64,000 bases of DNA, taken from positions 1 through 64,000 of the forward strand of contig JACPIU010000035.1 in the NCBI GenBank assembly GCA_016187935.1, written 5' to 3'. This DNA is from Bdellovibrio sp. GTDB lineage: Bacteria > Bdellovibrionota > Bacteriovoracia > Bacteriovoracales > Bacteriovoracaceae. The translations under genes were made by a program, and so were the position numbers. Under the pieces are notes generated by a model that saw only the letters and a program-made list of their open reading frames with translations, had not been told where the DNA came from and made no database searches. This document shows positions 5,969-21,360 of this stretch, piece by piece (within the stretch, counting starts at the first letter, position 1; each line of letters begins with the position of its first letter).

Positions 5969-6736
5969 TTATTTCTTTAGTATGGAATCGTCCTGGCGCA
6001 TTTCAAGGAAAAGGCCCTCAGGAATCTGCGATTCTCTTGGAGCAATGACACTGCTATCGCGGGTTTCGGCCAAGGCCATCTTTTCTTCCCCTGCAATGGA
6101 AGGAGCAGTCAGAGATTTCCTCATACTTTCTTCCATATGCATCAGCTTGCTGCCAAAATAGTTCGTACCTGGATCGGCCATGGCCACTAGATAATCTCCA
6201 GGTTTCAGCTTAAAAACTTTACCGGATGTTTTATATCGAACCTGAGCATTCCCACTCAAGAGCGCCACTTCAGACAGCTCGCTCTTAACGCCTTCAACTT
6301 TATGATTCATGACAATTTCCGTGCCACGCACGCCCATGCTGACTGTCTTGGTATCAACTTTGACCCGGTTCTCTGAACCTGTCGCAGTTTTAGAAATGCT
6401 TCCGCGCAATTGTCCATACAGCAGATCAAATTCGATAATGCGTTTCTTTTTTTCATCAAACACCATATGGCGAAAATTGAATTTGGTTTTGGGCCCGAAT
6501 GTGAGAGTGCTGCCATCCACCAACGTGACCTGGGCCATGGATTTCTCTTGAGTGATAATGGTATCCCGGGAAGCAATTTCATCATCAACTTTTAGGCTTT
6601 TTTCACTCATATCCCCTTGAGCGATTTTGGCCACATTCCCGATAACTTTTGTCGCCTTTCCCAAGCTGGCGCCGCTGGCACTCCAACTTGCAAGACAAAA
6701 AATACTCCATACCAACAAAATCTTATGTAAGTTCAT
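5969..6736 (-). CDS. secreted FecR-domain protein
   Basis: Periplasmic or surface protein with a FecR domain. An N-terminal Sec signal (MNLHKILLVWSIFCLASWSA) is followed directly by the FecR fold: ASRDTIITQEKSMAQVTLVDGS, then LTFGPKTKF, then VDTKTVSMGVRGTEIVM. The last is the typical VRGTEF-like signature of secreted FecR proteins. The remaining 90 residues are polar without clear motif. Stand-alone secreted FecR proteins are not the anti-sigma FecR of iron uptake; no sigma factor or TonB receptor is adjacent. An AAGGA ribosome site precedes the ATG. A second, much larger FecR protein lies at 16183-19365. Confidence 0.83.
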   Translation of the reverse strand: MNLHKILLVWSIFCLASWSASGASLGKATKVIGNVAKIAQGDMSEKSLKVDDEIASRDTIITQEKSMAQVTLVDGSTLTFGPKTKFNFRHMVFDEKKKRIIEFDLLYGQLRGSISKTATGSENRVKVDTKTVSMGVRGTEIVMNHKVEGVKSELSEVALLSGNAQVRYKTSGKVFKLKPGDYLVAMADPGTNYFGSKLMHMEESMRKSLTAPSIAGEEKMALAETRDSSVIAPRESQIPEGLFLEMRQDDSILKK

Positions 6737-10853: not shown

Positions 10854-11267
10854 TTATTTCTGGCATACGAACTCGTCTTTCAAGACTTCTCCCACTTTGT
10901 TTAAGAGCTGAGCACGGCCAAAAGGCTTCACCAGGATATGTCGTCCGCCTTCATTCAAGGCGACGATAACGTCCTCTTTAGTTAGACAACCGGAAATAAG
11001 GATAAATTTCATCATTCTGTTTTTTGGAGTCTTGCTTAACGTTCCAATGAGATCAATCCCGGTTTTCCCAGGCATTTTGTGATCGATAATCAAAAGATCA
11101 AAAGTTTGATTTTGCAATTTCTGCACCGCCTGAACTGCATTATGAGCGGCCACAAGTGTCTTGAATCTTCCGGTGGCACTTAAAAAAAGACAGATCAAAT
11201 CGCAAATTTTCTGCTCATCATCCACCACAAGCGCGGTATATTGTTCTTTTTTCAAACCATGGATCAT
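10854..11267 (-). CDS. single-domain response regulator
   Basis: A CheY-like receiver of 137 residues with no output domain. The acidic pair is in VVDDEQ, the phospho-accepting Asp in LLIIDHKMPGKTG, the conserved Ser/Thr in ILISGC and the Lys in VKPFG. It is the last gene of a four-gene minus-strand operon. Its ATG overlaps the stop of the hybrid histidine kinase by four bases (ATGA), so the kinase is the obvious phosphate donor. Output may pass by protein contact, perhaps back to the partner-switching proteins encoded upstream; that is inference. Confidence 0.88.
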   Translation of the reverse strand: MIHGLKKEQYTALVVDDEQKICDLICLFLSATGRFKTLVAAHNAVQAVQKLQNQTFDLLIIDHKMPGKTGIDLIGTLSKTPKNRMMKFILISGCLTKEDVIVALNEGGRHILVKPFGRAQLLNKVGEVLKDEFVCQK

Positions 11268-12811
11268 ACCACTTTCGCCCTCAATGCTTTTCTAATAATA
11301 TCCTTCAATTCTTGTGCTTTAAATGGTTTCTGAACAAGCCCTCGCACGTGAGCGAATTTTAATTTCTCATAATCTTCTTCTGAAAATTTACCACCGGTCA
11401 TGAAAATAAATTTGGGCGCCTCCGTTGCATTTTCAAATTGTAATGCTAAATCAAAGCCTCCTCTGACAGGCATATTCACGTCTGCAATGACAACATCTAC
11501 TCCAAATTTATGAATGATTCTCAGTGCATCTTCAACTTTAGTGGAACCAATAAATACAAACTCATCCTCCTCGGCCAGAATATGATTAATAACATTCAAA
11601 ACCTGTGGCTCATCATCGAGGGCCAATACTTTAATTCCGGGATGGTCCGCCAATCCTGACAAATAACGCTCATTTTGGGTGTAAGAAGAAACTTCAACAC
11701 CGGGAAGAATAACTTGAAAACAAGTTTCTCCATCTTTGGAATCTTCCAAACCTATCTTGCCATTGTGGGCAAGAATAATTTTTTGACATATGGGCAATCC
11801 CAGTCCTGTCCCTTCGCCAATCGACTTGGTGGTGAAAAAAGGTCGAAAGACTTCCGATTTAAGATGCGCAGGAATCCCCGAACCATTATCAATAACTTTT
11901 AAAACAATGGACCCATCATCTTCGTTTTTAGACAGATGGATGGTCAGCTTTCGCTTTTTAGAAATCCTATCTTCACAAAGAGCATCGAATGAATTTTTGG
12001 CCAAATTCAAAACGACCTGTCTAATCTTGACGGGATTAACAAACGCCACGACTTCATCATCGGTAAAATCAAAGGAGAGTTCGATGTTATTTTCCTTGAG
12101 CGACAGTTTCAGTAACTGCAGAACGTCCTCAACAAGAATTTTCAAATCGACATACTCTTTTTTATCTTCATTTTTGTGAAGATAAGTCTTCATGTTAATG
12201 ATAATCTCGTTAATGCCTTGGAGCGAATCATAAGCATTTTCGATACAATTTTTTAGAACATCCTTACCTTCAAAATCCGCAGCAGATTCCAAAAGCCCCT
12301 TGGCCACCTCAACATTACCGCTGGCAATGGTCAGGGGATTGGCAATTTCATGGGAAATCGAGGCAGTCATTTCACCCAAGGTGGCCAACTTATCGGCCTG
12401 GATAATTTGTGCATGGCCTTCTTCAATCTCTTTCATTTGAGTCTTGTATTTTTCAAAGAGATGTTTTTCAACGGTGATATCCCTGAAAAACAAGAATAAT
12501 TCCTGTGAATTTTCGCTCGATGGGACAATTTTCAAAACAAAAAATATTTTTTGCGCCGCTATTTTCTGAAGTGAAAATGAAATTTCAGCGGAAATTTTAA
12601 CTTCGTTTTCTTTCCGCGCCTCCTCAAGCAGCGTTATTGGCCACGCCGTTTTTTCAACAAATATTTCTTCTGGGGTAATACCGGATTTCAAAATCCTTGG
12701 AGGTGTTTGGAAATACACCGAGGCAGAATAATTGAAATAAATTATCTCATTCTTGGCATTGACAAGAAGAATGGCCTCATGCAACTGATCATACGCTTTA
12801 ATATCGATCAT
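11264..12811 (-). CDS. hybrid sensor histidine kinase (PAS-HK-REC)
   Basis: Soluble hybrid kinase of 515 residues. A PAS-like sensor (about 1-115) with no membrane segment leads to a dimerisation/phosphoacceptor helix with LATLGEMTASISHEIANPL (His near residue 155). The ATP-binding domain shows NLAKNSFDAL (N box), VIDNGSGIP (G1), FRPFFTTKS (F box) and GTGLGLPI (G2). A C-terminal receiver (about 395-512) has ALDDEP, ADVNMPVRGG and VQKPF. It lies 4 bases after the STAS gene stop and overlaps the following receiver gene by ATGA. Together they could form a phosphorelay: kinase His, own receiver Asp, then the free receiver. Confidence 0.9.
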   Translation of the reverse strand: MIDIKAYDQLHEAILLVNAKNEIIYFNYSASVYFQTPPRILKSGITPEEIFVEKTAWPITLLEEARKENEVKISAEISFSLQKIAAQKIFFVLKIVPSSENSQELFLFFRDITVEKHLFEKYKTQMKEIEEGHAQIIQADKLATLGEMTASISHEIANPLTIASGNVEVAKGLLESAADFEGKDVLKNCIENAYDSLQGINEIIINMKTYLHKNEDKKEYVDLKILVEDVLQLLKLSLKENNIELSFDFTDDEVVAFVNPVKIRQVVLNLAKNSFDALCEDRISKKRKLTIHLSKNEDDGSIVLKVIDNGSGIPAHLKSEVFRPFFTTKSIGEGTGLGLPICQKIILAHNGKIGLEDSKDGETCFQVILPGVEVSSYTQNERYLSGLADHPGIKVLALDDEPQVLNVINHILAEEDEFVFIGSTKVEDALRIIHKFGVDVVIADVNMPVRGGFDLALQFENATEAPKFIFMTGGKFSEEDYEKLKFAHVRGLVQKPFKAQELKDIIRKALRAKVV

Positions 12812-12815
12812 GAAA

Positions 12816-13283
12816 TCAACCTTTTATAAAGTAAAAATACTGCTCCTCGATTGCGTCAAACTCCATTTCTTCCCCTGTTTCCTCACAACACATTTTGGGG
12901 GCCTTTCTTGCTTTCACCTCAGAGACTTTCAAAAGTATTTTCTTTTCAGTGTCATGATGTTCACAAAAATAGGGTGCATAAAATGATTCAATAACACAAT
13001 TAGGGCGTAAAAAACCCTGCACCATATTTATCTGTTCGATAATTATTTGCGGGCATCGCGAATATATTATTTTGCTTTTGGGGCCCAGTTTATCCAAAAA
13101 AACGATCCAATCTCTGATCCCACATGAGTTTATCAGCTCGACCTCATTGAAATCAAAGTTGTACTGATCAAATCCGGATAGAGGAATTTGCGCCAGATCA
13201 GCATCTTCATTGATGTGGCCTTTTAACTTGATTTTTATATTTCTGCCCTGGACTTCCGTGACAATTTTCAAATTCTGCCCCAT
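12816..13283 (-). CDS. STAS-domain protein with a degenerate zinc-ribbon tail
   Basis: Probable anti-sigma-factor-antagonist type protein. Residues about 8-100 fit the STAS fold (IKIKLKGHINEDADL, then FDFNEVELINSCGIRDWI, where the Ser before CGI sits at the place phosphorylated in SpoIIAA/RsbV). The C-terminal 50 residues look like a zinc ribbon in which one cysteine of each pair is altered: CEHH instead of CxxC, and CCEET near the end. It lies directly between the SpoIIE-type phosphatase and the hybrid kinase, separated by 3 and 4 bases, which marks it as their likely shared target. Strong ribosome site gaggag before the ATG. Confidence 0.8.
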   Translation of the reverse strand: MGQNLKIVTEVQGRNIKIKLKGHINEDADLAQIPLSGFDQYNFDFNEVELINSCGIRDWIVFLDKLGPKSKIIYSRCPQIIIEQINMVQGFLRPNCVIESFYAPYFCEHHDTEKKILLKVSEVKARKAPKMCCEETGEEMEFDAIEEQYFYFIKG

Positions 13284-13286
13284 CGG

Positions 13287-16100
13287 CTACTCCTCTCGAA
13301 AAAAATGAAAAGAAGTGACTCTTTCTTTATAATGTTTTTGTCGTTTCTGCAGGTCAAACAAGGCAATTACCTCAGTGCGCTTGTCATCCCAAAGATTGAC
13401 CACCAAAGTGCTGCTCAATCCAAAGGCCATATAAAGTCCCAGGCCAGCACCACCTGTTTCGGTCTTAGGCATCTTTTCTCTCATTGCTCTTAAAATTCCG
13501 TTTAAAATTATATCACGTTTTAGACCGCCAAAATTATCTTCCACGGAGATCGCCATGAGTTTTTCCCCCCTGCCCATTTTAAAAGAAACCTTCTCCTTGA
13601 GCTCTAAGGCATGAGATTGGGTCCGATCCACATTATAATACTTGAGTTCTCCCGATGGTTTCCTGACAGCATCAAAGACCGCATTAGACACCAACTCGAC
13701 GGAGACCGTGGCAAGGTAGTCTTTCAGAGGTGCAAAGTAAGTTGTTAAATCAAATTTTTCTATCATCTGACTGACAATTTCCATAATTTTTTCGGAAGAT
13801 CCCACCTCTTCGTGATGAATAATGGCCCCATCTCCAAGATATCGCTCGATACCCCACAAATGTCCGAAACGTTCTTTACAAATATTGGCCGAAATTTCTC
13901 CGTATAAATCAAAAGCGTTTTTACCTATCAAATGGCGAATTTCAAAAGGCGATAAAATAAATTCGATGTTTTCCTCACTGGTGACATCAGAAAGAACATA
14001 TACTTTTTTGCCATTTGTCTTCAAGAATTCCAATTCCTCGGGAGACAAAGGTAACTTACACCAGTATAAAATGACATCAGCATCCCGGCCGTTTTCAATT
14101 TCTTCCACCACCATATTTTGCTTTGTCAATTCATCTTTGAGTTTCATCAAGTCAAAATCATGGGCCGGAGTACCATGCAGAGCTATTTTCACCACGTGCT
14201 TGCTTTGTCTTTTTAAGCAGACGACTGTATGGTCGTCCTTTATTGAGGCCCCCTCCAAAAAATCATTAATATCCGAAAAGACCGTATCAACCACGTTAGA
14301 GGCCAAGGCCATTCTTGTTTTAATCAGAGTTTTTAAAAGCCTTCTTTGGCCAAATGGTTTTCCCTCAGCATTTTCGGCCTCGGTAATTCCATCAGTATAG
14401 AAAAAGATGGCGTCATCTTTTTCCAGCATGATTTCTTCATACTTGTAGATTTCATCTGACCGATGCCCGAGTCGTGCACCATTGGCCTCCATTAAAGGAA
14501 CAAATTGATCTTTTTCTGGAGTGGGAGTGTTTTCCTTGCTTTTGAAAAAGATAGGTGGGCAATGGGAAGCATTGGCATATTTGAAAATATGAGTTTCAAC
14601 ATCAAGCACACCAACCACGGCCGTCATCAGCATCTCGCCTTTCAAGCCTAAGGCGGCATGATTCATGAATGACAAAATTTTACCTGGGTTTTCCAAATAA
14701 TCAGGGTGATCATAAATGATTTGCTTCAGATTTCTTAAAGAACAAAAGGCCGTGGCCGTCATTAAGGCCGCTCCAACTCCGTGTCCCGTAGCATCACAAA
14801 TGAAAATAACAGATTTCGGGCCGTGATGAAAGATGCCCCACCAATCACCTCCACATTCAGAGGCCGAGCGGAATCGGCCTGAAACTTCGATGCATCCTTT
14901 TTTCCAATCCTGATCAGGAAAGAAAGTTGATTGAACCAATTGGGCAACATAGAGTTCATTTTCCAATCTGGATTTCTCTTTCATTTCCCCAATGTAATGC
15001 TCAATCTCCTTGGACATGTAATTAAAGGTTGTGGCCAATGCGCTCAATTCGTCACGCCCTTTAATGGCCACGGTAATACCAAATTCACCTTTGGCGACTT
15101 TTTGCGCCATGGCCGCCAGTTTCTCCAATGGCCTGGTCAGTCCCCGTGCAAACAGTAGTCCGAAAAAAACACATAATGAAAGTAACAATCCGCCCAGAAA
15201 TGCTGACCGTTGAATGAGAAATCTGGCGGCCCGAAAAGCTTCATTGGTTGGAATTAAGGCCAAGGCCCACAACTTAAAATCTGGCAGAAATTTGATTCCC
15301 AAAAGGACATTTTGTTTTCGTTCACCTTTGCCTGATAAATCAAACTCTCTGACTTCAGCTCCTACATCCGCCGTTGGCCTTGATTGAAAATTGACGACCT
15401 GTTTGGCCAAATCAAATCCCGAACTCTCCAAGTGATTTATGAAATCCTTGCGGCCGCCATCTAAAATAGTTTCTAAATTTTCATTAAAGAGTAAGAAATA
15501 ATGCTGCTTCCCTTTGGCAAGCGCTGTAAAAAAATGAGAGGCGGAAAGCCTAAGAACCAGGATTCCTTCGGGATAGGATTTGACAACTTCTAGGATTTTA
15601 CTTCCCGCCAAACTAACAGTTTTACTGGTAAAATTTTTCGATTGCGAATGCTGCAAATCTTCCATCAATTTTGCATTTTGAATGTCACTGAAAGCTTGAT
15701 AGTTTTCCTCTTCCAGCCCTTCAGGGCGATGGACGAAAACTTGAAATTTATTTTTCAAAAGCTGTTGTTGATCTTTAATCTCTCTCACCAAAAAAACCGC
15801 TTCATACATTTCTTCTTTTCTGAGCAGCGTTTCTTTTAAACGGGTAAGATCCTGCGTGCGAATTTGTTCATGGCCACTTTTAATGAGAGGCAATAAGAGC
15901 GACTCCATTTCTGACATGCGCGAGCGCACCTGTTCCCCGAGTGTTTCCACTGAAGCCAGGGTTGAATCATAGATATAAGCGGCCTTATCCTCGTTAAAAA
16001 GCTTGATCGCATAATAAACATAAAAGGCCAAAGCACCGACCAACAGAGGACCGAATAGAACAATTATCTTGGCCTTTAGAGGAACTGAAATCTTTTGCAA
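13287..16100 (-). CDS. membrane HAMP-PP2C (SpoIIE) phosphatase fused to a HATPase
   Basis: A 937-residue signalling protein. Order: membrane span at about 9-34, periplasmic sensor of about 260 residues, second span at about 297-320, HAMP (LTRPLEKLAAMAQKVAKGEF). Then a SpoIIE-type PP2C phosphatase with ECGGDWW, CDATGHGVGAALM, FYTDGITEA and DDHTVV metal/catalytic motifs. A region of about 150 residues with receiver-like strand pattern but no phospho-Asp signature follows. The C-terminus is an anti-sigma-type HATPase (VSVELVSNAVFDA N box, VEDNFGGL, GGAGLGLYMAFGL). It could thus dephosphorylate, and possibly phosphorylate, the STAS protein encoded next. The frame starts with TTG (weak agagaa site); no ATG is available before the first span. 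Confidence 0.88.
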   Translation of the reverse strand: MQKISVPLKAKIIVLFGPLLVGALAFYVYYAIKLFNEDKAAYIYDSTLASVETLGEQVRSRMSEMESLLLPLIKSGHEQIRTQDLTRLKETLLRKEEMYEAVFLVREIKDQQQLLKNKFQVFVHRPEGLEEENYQAFSDIQNAKLMEDLQHSQSKNFTSKTVSLAGSKILEVVKSYPEGILVLRLSASHFFTALAKGKQHYFLLFNENLETILDGGRKDFINHLESSGFDLAKQVVNFQSRPTADVGAEVREFDLSGKGERKQNVLLGIKFLPDFKLWALALIPTNEAFRAARFLIQRSAFLGGLLLSLCVFFGLLFARGLTRPLEKLAAMAQKVAKGEFGITVAIKGRDELSALATTFNYMSKEIEHYIGEMKEKSRLENELYVAQLVQSTFFPDQDWKKGCIEVSGRFRSASECGGDWWGIFHHGPKSVIFICDATGHGVGAALMTATAFCSLRNLKQIIYDHPDYLENPGKILSFMNHAALGLKGEMLMTAVVGVLDVETHIFKYANASHCPPIFFKSKENTPTPEKDQFVPLMEANGARLGHRSDEIYKYEEIMLEKDDAIFFYTDGITEAENAEGKPFGQRRLLKTLIKTRMALASNVVDTVFSDINDFLEGASIKDDHTVVCLKRQSKHVVKIALHGTPAHDFDLMKLKDELTKQNMVVEEIENGRDADVILYWCKLPLSPEELEFLKTNGKKVYVLSDVTSEENIEFILSPFEIRHLIGKNAFDLYGEISANICKERFGHLWGIERYLGDGAIIHHEEVGSSEKIMEIVSQMIEKFDLTTYFAPLKDYLATVSVELVSNAVFDAVRKPSGELKYYNVDRTQSHALELKEKVSFKMGRGEKLMAISVEDNFGGLKRDIILNGILRAMREKMPKTETGGAGLGLYMAFGLSSTLVVNLWDDKRTEVIALFDLQKRQKHYKERVTSFHFFREE

Positions 16101-16182: not shown

Positions 16183-19100
16183 ATGGCATCCTTGGATTCC
16201 AACAATCCAATCTATACTAAACCAAGGGGCTCAACTTTAGACACCGTGTTGCTTCTGTTGAGCGCATCGTTCTCTGTGCTTTTCCTATTTTTACTCCTCA
16301 TCCCTGATCATGAGATAGATACCGTCCGACAGACAGCAGGTATTCTGTTGATGCGCTCAAATGTCGTAAAAATCCGCCAAGATCATGACTGGGCCTGGTT
16401 TGAAGGCCAAGCTGGGGACAAGATACATGCAGGCGACCTCATTTTTACTCATGCTAATTCCAGGGCGACAGTCGATTTGTCCGGGGGAGAAAAAATAAAA
16501 CTGAATTCGAATACGCTGATTAAAATTGCCAAAAGTGAAGATAGCAATACTTCAGAAATTGAAATCCAAAAAGGCATCATTGAGGCCACTATGGCTCAAA
16601 ACGGCCCTGTCAAAAAAGAATTAAGCATAAAATTTAAAGGCAAATCCTATCTTTTACATTCATCAGGGAAAAACAAGACGAAACTGCAGTTTAAAAGTGA
16701 AAACAAGGGAGGAGAATTATTTGTGCTTGAAGGAAGTGCCGAACTGAAAACAGGCAAAGGTAATATCCTTATCAACTCCAGCAACAGAATCAATATCACG
16801 GGCGATGGTAAAGACAGCGTTGAAAAAATGAGTGTCGTTCCCGTAGCTCCATTGAATGAAGAGACTCTTGTCTTGGAATTGGGCAGGCCACATCACGTGG
16901 TTAAACTAAAATGGCAATCGCACCTCTCTGAACATGCCGAAGCTTTTCATCTCAAGATCGGCACAGATCCCACTTTAACGACACTTGTCTACTCAAATCC
17001 AGTTACCGGACATGAATATTCTTTTGTGCCTGAAGGTGATGGGACCTATTACTGGCAAATTGCCCAGAAAGAAGAAAAGACATCCGGCCCGATATTGTCA
17101 TTCAATGTTTTCGCCAACGATGAACCGGACATTTCACTCAACCCTGCCGGCCCCGATTACTCCCTGGATGATCATATCATTTGTTCATTTCAAAACATGT
17201 CACAAAGCTTAAAATTGCAATATCACTTGGCCATCGAAGGGCAAAATCTAGAGGAACATTTGACCTCAAACGATGGGGTCTTCAATTACTCCTTCCCACG
17301 TCCAGGAATGTATATTTTCAAGGCCAGAAAAGAATTTAATGGATATTTTTCCAAAGAAAAAACTACTAGCGTTAATGTTAACAACTTTGAAATGCCAATG
17401 CCCCCAGAAATTGCCACGCCCCAAGACGGACAAATTGATTTGCACATGCGGGAAAAATCAGATCAAAAGGGTCCTAATGCGATCATTATTTCTCTTGTAA
17501 AACCCGTGCCCAAATATGGTCTGGAGGTTTCTCTCTTGGCAATGAAAGATAAAAAAGAATATTTCTTGAGAAGTGAAGATGATCTGACCATGGTCAAGCT
17601 TTCGGCCTTCGACAAATATCAAATCAAAGCGCGAAATTATCTTAAAACCCATCCCAATATCGTCTCTCCATGGAGCAAGGCCATCTCATATCAAGTCAAG
17701 GAATTGACAAGACCGAATGCTTTACCGGAAAACGGTACCCGCATTGAATTAGAAAAACCCTCAGAAAAAGTCACCTTCTCTTGGAAGGCCCCGAACAAAG
17801 AAGATCTTCTCACAGAAGAATTATTGAACACCACATACTTGTTTGAAATTGACGATAACCCGGAATTTTCCGGCCCGGACCAGCAAGTCACTTTGGAAAA
17901 CACCACCCATTTTTCAATTTCAGTTGATCATCCCGGAATCTATTATTGGCGCACAAAGATCATCACGACAACGGGAGAAGTTCTCTATTCAACTCCCAAA
18001 AAAGTTGAAATTTCTCCCATCCCGCCCCCCCCGGCGATCGAGATTCAGGATTTGAAATTGAAAATAAAATTTAATCAAACCCGTTCTCCCTCTCTGCTCG
18101 ATAGGTTTTTGCAATTTATGATCAGCAGTTCCTATGCCGCATCCGATGAAAACCGGGGATATGTTGAAATTTCATGGCCCGAAAATAAGAATGCCGAATA
18201 TTACTTGCTTCAGATTTTCCAGGATTCAAATGACCAAACTCCATTGATAGAAAAAAAACTTAAGCAAAATACCTTCATCTGGGAAGCCCCCCCATCCGGT
18301 ATCTTCTATTACCGCATTGCCATCATTGATTTCTGGCAACGTCAAGGATCTTTCGGACGATTGGCAAAAATTGAAATTGAGTATGATGAGAAGGATCTTG
18401 TGGCCCCCGATATCGAATTAAAACAGAGTCCGGCAGAGTCTCAAATAGAGGGAGATGAAACGGTATATCTTTTAAAGATCGGCAAAAGAATCAGTTCGGT
18501 ATTTCCAAGTTTTTTTCAAATATCAAAATCAAGTAGCGCCAAATCTTTTGATCATCCTCTGATTGAGAAAAAAGTAAAGGCGAGTGAAGGAATTCAGCTC
18601 AAGAAAAAAGACTTCGAACCTGGCAAGTATTTCTATCGCTCGGTAATCAAAGATGCAAAAACCGGTCAGGTCATACGATCCTCCCCTGTTTCTTTTTTTA
18701 CCATTGAAAAAGCTGCCAGCATCCCCCCTATTGCTCACACCCTGCCAGAGGCCATGCCGCCGCCAGAACTCATGGCCCCGGTCATGAGTGAGAAGGCCAA
18801 TGAAAGTTCCTTATCCTACGGACCTTCAAAAATTAATCTCGAATCCCAAAATGGTAATAAGAAAGCGACCGTTGATGGTATCGCGCTTAAAACACTTGCC
18901 CTGCACTCTCAACATAACAACCTCACAATCGCCGGCCCTTTTGATAGCTTCCATGTAAACTTTTTTTTTGAACAAGGGCAGGTCTTTAGTAGCGACAGTT
19001 ACCTGCGCTCTTTTCTGAATTTTACTGTTGCAAAATCAATGCTCACTAATTCCCTGGAGCTAGGCCCCCTTGTCCACCTGGAGAGCATGACTTATTTTGA

Positions 19101-19365
19101 TAACGTTTCCGGGCTGCAAGAAAAGAAGACAAAAAGTCTGGTGGCCGCAGGTGCCAGCTTCGACTCTCGCTATTATGATTTCAAATTCAATTTCACTTTT
19201 GCCTTGGGACTGGCGACCATTTTTAAGGCCCATATAAAATATCTCTTGATGAAAGAAAAAATTTTTATTTATTTGGAATTTGAAAGGATGAGTTTTTCAA
19301 ATTCAGGCAGCGAAATCAGCTATCAGGCCTTTCGTCCCCAGCTTGGTCTCACATTCTTTTATTAA
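16183..19365 (+). CDS. large membrane-anchored FecR-domain protein
   Basis: A 1060-residue surface or periplasmic protein. An N-terminal span (LDTVLLLLSASFSVLFLFLLL, here ending before LIPD) anchors it. A FecR domain follows at about 50-150 (VRQTAGILLMRSNVVKIR, GDKIHAGDLIFTHANSRATV, LNSNTLIKI). The long middle part contains repeated fibronectin-like units, each ending in a YYW/YYR segment (GTYYWQIAQ, GIYYWRTKI, GIFYYRIAI, GKYFYRSVI). The last 150 residues have alternating strands ending LGLTFFY, like an outer-membrane barrel or beta-sandwich. It is divergent from the partner-switching operon with 82 bases between starts, so the two probably share control. Confidence 0.82.
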   Translation: MASLDSNNPIYTKPRGSTLDTVLLLLSASFSVLFLFLLLIPDHEIDTVRQTAGILLMRSNVVKIRQDHDWAWFEGQAGDKIHAGDLIFTHANSRATVDLSGGEKIKLNSNTLIKIAKSEDSNTSEIEIQKGIIEATMAQNGPVKKELSIKFKGKSYLLHSSGKNKTKLQFKSENKGGELFVLEGSAELKTGKGNILINSSNRINITGDGKDSVEKMSVVPVAPLNEETLVLELGRPHHVVKLKWQSHLSEHAEAFHLKIGTDPTLTTLVYSNPVTGHEYSFVPEGDGTYYWQIAQKEEKTSGPILSFNVFANDEPDISLNPAGPDYSLDDHIICSFQNMSQSLKLQYHLAIEGQNLEEHLTSNDGVFNYSFPRPGMYIFKARKEFNGYFSKEKTTSVNVNNFEMPMPPEIATPQDGQIDLHMREKSDQKGPNAIIISLVKPVPKYGLEVSLLAMKDKKEYFLRSEDDLTMVKLSAFDKYQIKARNYLKTHPNIVSPWSKAISYQVKELTRPNALPENGTRIELEKPSEKVTFSWKAPNKEDLLTEELLNTTYLFEIDDNPEFSGPDQQVTLENTTHFSISVDHPGIYYWRTKIITTTGEVLYSTPKKVEISPIPPPPAIEIQDLKLKIKFNQTRSPSLLDRFLQFMISSSYAASDENRGYVEISWPENKNAEYYLLQIFQDSNDQTPLIEKKLKQNTFIWEAPPSGIFYYRIAIIDFWQRQGSFGRLAKIEIEYDEKDLVAPDIELKQSPAESQIEGDETVYLLKIGKRISSVFPSFFQISKSSSAKSFDHPLIEKKVKASEGIQLKKKDFEPGKYFYRSVIKDAKTGQVIRSSPVSFFTIEKAASIPPIAHTLPEAMPPPELMAPVMSEKANESSLSYGPSKINLESQNGNKKATVDGIALKTLALHSQHNNLTIAGPFDSFHVNFFFEQGQVFSSDSYLRSFLNFTVAKSMLTNSLELGPLVHLESMTYFDNVSGLQEKKTKSLVAAGASFDSRYYDFKFNFTFALGLATIFKAHIKYLLMKEKIFIYLEFERMSFSNSGSEISYQAFRPQLGLTFFY

Positions 19366-19596: not shown

Positions 19597-21360
19597 ATGA
19601 ACTACACAAAAAATGTTTATGGAATAAAACAGCTCGTGGTGCTCTTATTTATGTGTTCATTCGTAATTGCCATGGATGGTTTTTCAAAAGATGAAGGACC
19701 TCTTCTCTACTATGTAAAAGGCAATTTACGCGGTGGACATATCGAAATTCAAACCACTGTCAAAGCTTCGGAAAATGAAAGCACCACTAGGAAAAATTTT
19801 AAAGGCAAAGTGGCCTTACCTGAACATTTTGAAGTGGCAAAAGCATTCCTGTTCAGAAAAATCACAAATGCCACCTTACGTTTCGATAGCGACCTCGAAT
19901 GCGAATATCGATTAAGACATCCCCATGATCACCAAAAACTTCACTTTGTTGCTTGTAATGACCATGCCGTAGTTCCAGGAAAAGCTCTATCAGTGATAGG
20001 CCATATTGAGTTAAGTGCCACAGCAACAGGTTTTTTCCCTGCCAACGTTTCTGTCAAGGCCTTTTTAAAAATCCTTTCCAGCGATGAACAAGAAATCGGA
20101 TTAGTATTTCCGTATATCTCACCAACCGAAGGTCAGATTTTACAATTTAATGGAACTGCCTGGGTTCCCCGTGATTACATAGGAGATGGTCAAGCGATCG
20201 GTGATATTCTGGCCTGGGATGGGCAGCAATGGGCAGCAAGGGCCCTTGAATCATTACCTGGAGAAACAGGACCGCAAGGACCTATCGGGCCTACAGGCCC
20301 TCAAGGACCCCAGGGCATTCAAGGTCTGCAAGGAGAAAAAGGTGATGCGGGGATCGCCGGTACTGACGGCGCCCCTGGACCGCAAGGACCTATCGGCCCT
20401 ACAGGCCCTCAAGGACCCCAGGGAATTCAAGGCTTGCAAGGAGAGAAAGGTGATGCAGGGATCGCCGGTGCTAACGGCGCCCCTGGAGCGCAAGGCCCTC
20501 AAGGACCCCAGGGCATTCAAGGCTTGCAAGGAGAGAAAGGTGATGCGGGGATCGCCGGGGCTGACGGTGCCCCTGGAGCGCAAGGCCCTCAAGGACCCCA
20601 GGGCATTCAAGGTTTGAAAGGAGAGAAAGGTGATGCGGGGATCGCCGGTGCTGACGGTGCCCCTGGACCGCAAGGCCCACAAGGCCCCCAGGGCATTCAA
20701 GGTTTGCAGGGAGAAAAAGGTGATCCGGGTGTGGACGGTACGGATGCTTTTGTTCAACTTAATCTTGGTGCCGGTTTAGTCGGTGGTGTAAACGGCGTTG
20801 TGGTGAATAATGATACTGTGGCCGTCGATGTGGGCGTCAATGCGGGACAAATTCCACAGTTGGACAGCACCGGAAAAATTCCTGCATCAATGCTACCATC
20901 TCAACAATCTATCAGAGTGGCCTTTGCCAAAGATATCAAAAATCCCGGAGTCCATGGTGGTACATGTACCTCTGGCTCCTGGATGGTCAGAGATTTAAAT
21001 ACGCTTGAAGGTGATACGGAATTTATTTCTCTCTCAGGAAATAGCTTTACCTTGCAACCCGGGAAATATACCGTTCACATCGATGCCCCAGCATTCTTAT
21101 CCACCATGCACCAAGCAAGATTATACAATTTAACCTTATCTCAAGTCGCGATTTGGGGCTCTTCATCTTTATCCGCCAATAGCGGTGGTGGATCATTAAC
21201 TAATGCCTTTATCAAGGGACAATTAATCATCACAACGCCCACAAGTTTTAGAGTGGAACACAGATGTAATATTTCACGGGCAGATTTTGGTTTTGGTTAT
21301 GCCAATAACTTTGGAGGACCAGAAGTCTATACCCAGGCCATCATCACCAAAGTAGAATAG
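19597..21360 (+). CDS. secreted collagen-like repeat protein
   Basis: A 587-residue exported protein. The Sec signal includes LVVLLFMCSFVIAMDGFS. An N-terminal globular domain of about 190 residues contains two cysteines. Residues 222-383 are 54 uninterrupted Gly-x-y triplets of collagen type, and the remaining 200 residues form a beta-rich C-terminal domain with two cysteines (GGTCTSGS, EHRCNIS), resembling trimeric heads of bacterial collagen-like and phage-tail-fibre-like proteins. Bacterial collagen-like proteins form trimeric stalks; the head domains here suggest a surface fibre or adhesin. A good ribosome site (gagaggt) precedes the ATG. The glycine-rich gene downstream may be in the same unit (54-base gap). 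Confidence 0.85.
   Translation: MNYTKNVYGIKQLVVLLFMCSFVIAMDGFSKDEGPLLYYVKGNLRGGHIEIQTTVKASENESTTRKNFKGKVALPEHFEVAKAFLFRKITNATLRFDSDLECEYRLRHPHDHQKLHFVACNDHAVVPGKALSVIGHIELSATATGFFPANVSVKAFLKILSSDEQEIGLVFPYISPTEGQILQFNGTAWVPRDYIGDGQAIGDILAWDGQQWAARALESLPGETGPQGPIGPTGPQGPQGIQGLQGEKGDAGIAGTDGAPGPQGPIGPTGPQGPQGIQGLQGEKGDAGIAGANGAPGAQGPQGPQGIQGLQGEKGDAGIAGADGAPGAQGPQGPQGIQGLKGEKGDAGIAGADGAPGPQGPQGPQGIQGLQGEKGDPGVDGTDAFVQLNLGAGLVGGVNGVVVNNDTVAVDVGVNAGQIPQLDSTGKIPASMLPSQQSIRVAFAKDIKNPGVHGGTCTSGSWMVRDLNTLEGDTEFISLSGNSFTLQPGKYTVHIDAPAFLSTMHQARLYNLTLSQVAIWGSSSLSANSGGGSLTNAFIKGQLIITTPTSFRVEHRCNISRADFGFGYANNFGGPEVYTQAIITKVE
20260..20745 (+). repeat. in-frame tandem repeat encoding collagen Gly-x-y triplets
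   Basis: The DNA is built of five near-identical blocks. The first two span about 108 bases (36 residues, with an extra GPIGPT insert); later ones span 90 bases (30 residues: GAQ, GPQ, GPQ, GIQ, GLQ, GEK, GDA, GIA, GAD, GAP). Copies differ mostly at third positions and a few residues (GTD, GAN, GAD), so they are recent duplications likely to vary in number between strains. Confidence 0.95.

Follow-up and report, generated by a model that had tools for sequence, protein, structure and literature searches.

The window analyzed here is a 64,000-nt stretch of a Bdellovibrio sp. genome (contig JACPIU010000035.1, positions 1 to 64,000). In it, four open reading frames lie in close succession on the minus strand, at 13287-16100 (937 aa), 12816-13283 (155 aa), 11264-12811 (515 aa), and 10854-11267 (137 aa). 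The first encodes a membrane sensor; a STAS-like protein, a hybrid histidine kinase with a PAS domain, and a lone receiver follow in this order, and successive genes are spaced by a 3-bp gap, a 4-bp gap, and a 4-bp overlap. Pfam recovered the HAMP, SpoIIE/PP2C, hybrid-kinase, and receiver domains, which agrees with the sequence-only reading of the region as a four-gene operon packed within a few bases. The features are listed with the basis of each assignment.

10854-11267, minus strand: stand-alone receiver (PF00072, 70 bits)
11264-12811, minus strand: hybrid histidine kinase, PAS-HisKA-HATPase-receiver (Pfam)
12816-13283, minus strand: STAS-like protein, 155 aa, with a C-terminal zinc-ribbon-like tail (alignment, TM1442 match)
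13287-16100, minus strand: membrane sensor, 937 aa, TM1-extracytoplasmic region-TM2-HAMP-PP2C-pseudo-receiver-Bergerat ATPase (open reading frame, Pfam, fold of the C-terminal half)
13290-13829, minus strand: Bergerat ATPase of the sensor, aa 758-937 (motifs in 60 relatives, fold matches)
13857-14198, minus strand: middle domain of the sensor, aa 635-748, degenerate receiver fold (AF2 model, VIA-align, column counts)
14205-14975, minus strand: PP2C/SpoIIE-type phosphatase domain of the sensor, aa 376-632 (PF07228, 120 bits)
15000-15155, minus strand: HAMP domain of the sensor, aa 316-367, with TM2 immediately before it (PF00672, 51.5 bits)
15228-16079, minus strand: TM1 (about aa 8-30), then the extracytoplasmic sensor region, reaching about aa 291 (hydropathy)
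16183-19365, plus strand: divergent FecR-like protein with Ig-like repeats, 1060 aa (PF04773, synteny)

In the hybrid kinase translation, the SHEIANP H box, the GLGLP motif, and the receiver Asp and Lys were all visible, and the lone receiver showed intact DDE, LIIDHKMPG, and KPF motifs. The RNA families sought at the locus were absent, and promoter-like sites did not exceed the number expected by chance. No gene for an output partner was found within the operon; nine matches to sigma-70 region 2 occur elsewhere in the window's genome.

Two hydrophobic helices were found in the sensor, near aa 8-30 (TM1) and aa 294-318 (TM2), with hydropathy peaks in the windows starting at aa 4-14 and 294-305. 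The extracytoplasmic region between them matched no Pfam family. Downstream of the HAMP domain, the PF07228 match itself spans aa 431-631, and the metal-ligand motifs (GD, DxTGHG, TDG, and DD) were invariant or nearly so among 21 relatives; both the SpoIIE profile and the metal-binding Asp motifs thus place the domain among the PP2C/SpoIIE-type phosphatases. Its best sequence match in the PDB was Rv1364c (PDB 3ke6). The best NCBIfam match of the sensor was SiaA, with a score far below the cut-off.

The last 300 residues of the sensor had no Pfam family above threshold; the HATPase scored below it. An AF2 model of the C-terminal half, built from a 60-sequence alignment, reached a pLDDT of 94 and a pTM of 0.92 (the whole 937 aa as a single sequence reached only a pLDDT of 33) and consisted of a receiver-like beta-alpha domain followed by a Bergerat ATPase. 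The best Foldseek match of this whole module was LvrC of Leptospira (E 2e-9). When the ATPase was compared alone, the top fold was SpoIIAB (Z 15.0, rmsd 2.1, 129 residues), and LvrC, RsbW (Z 13.2, 111 residues), UsfX, and SiaB (Z 12.1) were also among the top matches. These closest folds belong to Ser/Thr kinases or to (putative) anti-sigma factors, and no histidine-kinase catalytic domain was present among the 50 best fold matches listed. An endoplasmin or histidine-kinase identity of the ATPase, which arose in sequence-profile matches only, was set aside: those matches were read as weak Bergerat-wide similarity once the fold search had ranked SpoIIAB/RsbW first.

The ATPase motifs are an N box (E802/N806), a G1 box (D855-N-F-G858), and a G2 box (G884-A-G-L-G). 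All 60 relatives share the Glu and Asn of the N box and the GAGxG of the G2 box; in SpoIIAB, the N-box Glu is the general base. The G1 motif is DxxG, not D-x-G-x-G, with the Asp kept in 54/60 and the Gly in 59/60 relatives. The HATPase had been described as complete-looking from the sequence; its N and G2 boxes are conserved and its fold is of the SpoIIAB type, but the G1 box is atypical. Together, the motifs and the model support a serine-kinase-type (SpoIIAB/RsbW) Bergerat domain. Five of the 22 fused relatives, in which PP2C and ATPase share one chain, carry Gly in place of the G1 Asp; all belong to one clade (L064, L076, L078, L083, and L095), in which the Asp was apparently lost, and some members of the family, such as these, may be non-catalytic.

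Between the two enzymatic domains, the AF2 model showed the (beta-alpha)5 fold of receivers, and VIA-align matched it to receivers at Z scores reaching 9.6 over 100 residues. The receiver-like character that had been proposed for this spacer holds at the level of fold, and structure prediction, which had been suggested for the middle domain, placed the middle and C-terminal parts in signalling folds (receivers and SpoIIAB/RsbW, respectively). The domain's profile matched the operons' lone receivers only weakly (probability 31%), so that it is the fold that identifies it as a receiver. The residues of a working receiver are replaced: W680 occupies the position of the phospho-acceptor Asp, there is no Asp pair, and Gly stands in place of the Lys, as in 42/60 relatives. 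The middle domain is a pseudo-receiver, and given these substitutions the phosphorelay that had been proposed as a second input is unlikely to enter through it by the usual route.

The 155-aa STAS protein itself matched no Pfam family above threshold, and 2/18 family members matched STAS in Pfam at E<0.1. Its family profile matched the anti-sigma antagonist TM1442 (E 0.019), with Ser53 aligned on the acceptor Ser. Ser53, the predicted phospho-acceptor, lies within INSCGIRDW, and NSCG.R was invariant, Ser53 included, among 18 homology-selected relatives; the family has N-S-C-G where D-S-S/T-G is usual. An EFDxIExQYFxF motif is also found in the family. In relatives, the protein ends in a CxxC...CxxC tail, which in some scores as a Pfam zinc ribbon and whose ligands are partly lost in the window's copy. 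The family was found in 107/144 sampled genomes of the phylum, in up to 12 copies per genome, and once in the genome of the window. Within the same taxonomic family, the ATPase family was strongly present in 16/16 STAS-positive and in 0/12 STAS-negative genomes, which are related and do not represent independent tests. This strict co-occurrence supports a kinase-substrate pair.

The same co-occurrence, with one particular STAS protein, weighs against a reading in which the ATPase would be an ATP-binding anti-sigma factor or scaffold acting by sequestration of the STAS protein or of a sigma factor, with PP2C as the only chemical activity and the kinase encoded elsewhere. Such a role would suit the family-wide G1 anomaly, the loss of the G1 Asp in one fused clade, and the sub-threshold Pfam score of the window's ATPase, and LvrC, itself a receiver-Bergerat protein, has been interpreted as a sigma-sequestering factor. 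The invariance of the N box and the G2 box across the 60 sequences and the presence of the G1 Asp and Gly in the window's copy speak for catalysis, and we consider sequestration alone quite improbable.

Two congeneric genomes encode full-length matches to the sensor (81% and 57% identity), and in both the PP2C-ATPase fusion is in frame; the fusion is therefore no assembly error. A search of plasmids gave partial matches under 30% identity and no full-length homologue. Many genomes of the same taxonomic family keep the order PP2C sensor, mid-ATPase, STAS, hybrid kinase, and receiver, and because dozens of genomes repeat the arrangement, it is not due to chance. Of the 80 named loci that a scan with the STAS alignment yielded, nearly all carried a Bdellovibrionales, Bacteriovoracaceae, or Halobacteriovorax label, which makes a Bacteriovoracaceae-like origin of the window very probable. 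Among the culturable relatives with the operon is Halobacteriovorax marinus. PP2C and ATPase were fused in 21/80 loci and encoded by adjacent split genes in 26/80, counts that are no census, as the set was anchored on the STAS protein and based on naive ORF calls. Most split pairs overlapped by exactly 4 bp.

Two other arrangements were observed. Eight loci (L104, L106, L107, L108, L114, L118, L124, and L134) hold a second type of operon, without PP2C, in the order tandem proteins of ~370 aa, ATPase, STAS protein, a protein of ~640 aa, and receiver. Outside the phylum, a plasmid of Candidatus Thiodictyon syntrophicum (L135) carries a STAS gene, a SpoIIE phosphatase gene, and an overlapping ATP-binding gene close together, an arrangement that resembles the split form.

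On the PP2C+ATPase tree, the state changed between fused and split about six times, at least 3 of them on well-supported branches. The fusion is genuine, yet labile in evolution. It may also be functionally neutral, a merger of co-expressed neighbours that work exactly as the split pair does, and the shared gene order of the 26 split and 21 fused loci, mostly with 4-bp overlaps, and the repeated state changes speak for such neutrality; we give this slightly less than an even chance. The acceptor Asp of the middle domain was kept in 21/22 split forms and in 6/22 fused forms, which hints at a changed role of the domain after fusion, although the tree holds only about 3 independent contrasts and the difference is not significant. 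That fusion caused the loss of the Asp is a suggestive lead from the alignment.

Downstream of the PP2C/ATPase genes, a hybrid kinase was found in 40/47 loci and a lone receiver in 36/47. This conserved linkage could mean that the two-component proteins are the main input, the phosphorylated receiver binding the pseudo-receiver or the STAS protein and so setting the kinase/phosphatase balance, much as HptB acts on HsbR; the HsbR/HsbA system, fed by hybrid kinases, is a tested precedent. The sensor's middle domain, however, has no normal acceptor, the operon encodes no Hpt protein, and some loci (for example, L091 and L092) combine PP2C, ATPase, and STAS genes with no hybrid kinase beside them. 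We regard this input route as unlikely, if somewhat less so than sequestration by the ATPase.

The divergent FecR-like gene adjoined the PP2C sensor gene in 42/43 loci with upstream sequence. Its presence also tracked that of the operon across genomes (14/16 vs. 2/12; Fisher test, P = 3e-4, uncorrected for relatedness). FecR-like proteins also adjoin paralogous HAMP-Hpt-HATPase sensors (L136, L137, L138, and L140), and these share with the PP2C sensor an N-terminal DKxAYIY-type motif after TM1. We take the FecR-like protein as the leading candidate for an envelope partner of this type of sensor, and the tight link suggests an envelope input. Further along the window, a collagen-repeat protein is encoded downstream of the FecR-like gene (19597-21357, plus strand; PF01391, 95 bits), and a second, short FecR-domain protein lies at 5969-6736 (minus strand; PF04773, 48 bits).

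In the SpoIIE/SpoIIAB/SpoIIAA and RsbU/RsbW/RsbV systems of Bacillus, the PP2C phosphatase, the Bergerat serine kinase, and the STAS substrate are three separate proteins, and the SpoIIA/Rsb operons usually include the gene of the sigma factor. The operon of the window has the same three activities by assignment, with two of them fused and no sigma factor gene. The union of PP2C and a kinase-like ATPase in one HAMP sensor was confirmed by Pfam (HAMP and SpoIIE), the family alignments, and the AF2 fold. The contrast with separate SpoIIA/Rsb proteins had been taken to make the combination exceptional, and this was not supported: HsbR/CrsR, SypE, and Rv1364c are already fused, and close relatives of the window's sensor keep overlapping split genes.

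In HsbR-HsbA of Pseudomonas aeruginosa and CrsR-CrsA of Shewanella oneidensis, a REC-PP2C-kinase protein acts on one STAS target, and the HsbR system is fed by hybrid histidine kinases (PMC6482189, PMC5085249). As in HsbR/CrsR, the window's operon combines PP2C and a kinase/anti-sigma Bergerat domain in one chain with the gene of a STAS partner. The input there is a soluble N-terminal receiver, whereas the window's sensor has TM-HAMP; its receiver-fold domain is degenerate and lies between the enzymes, so that the order receiver, PP2C, kinase is absent, and its STAS protein has a zinc-ribbon-like tail. SypE of Vibrio fischeri (kinase-REC-PP2C), which targets Ser56 of the STAS protein SypA (PMC3610818, PMC8256260), likewise joins a kinase, a receiver-fold domain, and PP2C, but in reversed order and without a membrane part, and it is regarded as a true response regulator. 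In Rv1364c of Mycobacterium tuberculosis (PAS-PP2C-kinase-STAS; PMC9138534, PDB 3ke6), PP2C precedes the kinase as in the window, with a PAS input and the STAS domain in the same chain. In SiaABCD of P. aeruginosa, the membrane HAMP-PP2C protein SiaA is opposed by the Bergerat kinase SiaB (PMC7647112); HAMP-PP2C is shared with the window's sensor, whereas SiaB is a separate protein and the target SiaC and the output cyclase SiaD belong to other families. LvrC, a putative anti-sigma protein (PDB 9qih, PMC13269768), has a receiver followed by a SpoIIAB/RsbW-like Bergerat domain, as in the C-terminal module, but it stands alone, its receiver is functional and phosphorylated by LvrB, and it has no PP2C.

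Two enzymes in one chain therefore have precedents in Pseudomonas, Shewanella, Vibrio, and Mycobacterium, and HAMP-PP2C-kinase fusions may also have been described already. What differs in the window is the membrane/HAMP input, the domain order, the degenerate receiver, the zinc-ribbon-like tail of the STAS protein, and the FecR-like neighbour. In our literature searches, we found no partner switch described for this group of mostly uncultured, predator-related bacteria.

We favour a membrane-anchored partner switch in which both enzymes of the sensor chain act oppositely on Ser53 of the STAS protein, with an estimated probability of about 0.7. It is argued for by the intact PP2C ligands, the SpoIIAB-like fold, the invariant N box and Ser53, the co-occurrence of ATPase and STAS protein, the adjacency of kinase and phosphatase genes, fused or overlapping, in 47 loci, and precedents with tested activities (HsbR/HsbA, SypE/SypA, Rv1364c, and SiaABC). 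The DxxG form of G1, the loss of its Asp in a fused clade, the N-S-C-G of the STAS protein, and the absence of an output partner from the operon count against it. The action of both domains on Ser53 is what we infer from conservation, the model, and analogy.

In such a switch, the FecR-like protein would be an envelope partner feeding the sensor, and HAMP would relay an envelope signal to the PP2C dimer as well as to the linked kinase of the same chain; control of PP2C dimers by HAMP or other N-terminal domains through helical linkers has been proposed for related phosphatases (PMC12143880). The SpoIIAB/RsbW-type domain would use ATP to phosphorylate Ser53 and the PP2C domain would remove the phosphate, so that the signal would set the phosphorylation state of the STAS protein and thereby its choice of partner and the output (a sigma factor, a cyclase, or another). 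The pseudo-receiver would probably be a spacer, dimerisation, or docking element that accepts no phosphate, whereas a second branch, co-regulated and of the two-component type, would probably consist of the hybrid kinase and lone receiver. A more specific version is doubtful: that the FecR-like protein gates a sensor that both adds phosphate to and removes it from a zinc-ribbon STAS protein of a new output class, that the system is specific to Bdellovibrio-like bacteria, and that the receiver domain's phosphorylation site was lost when sensor and kinase became fused.

On the favoured reading, one transmembrane signal would govern both the kinase and the phosphatase of a partner switch in a mostly uncultured, predator-related group. 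With its naturally occurring split and fused forms, this group offers a ready system for testing what the fusion of opposing enzymes does to signalling.
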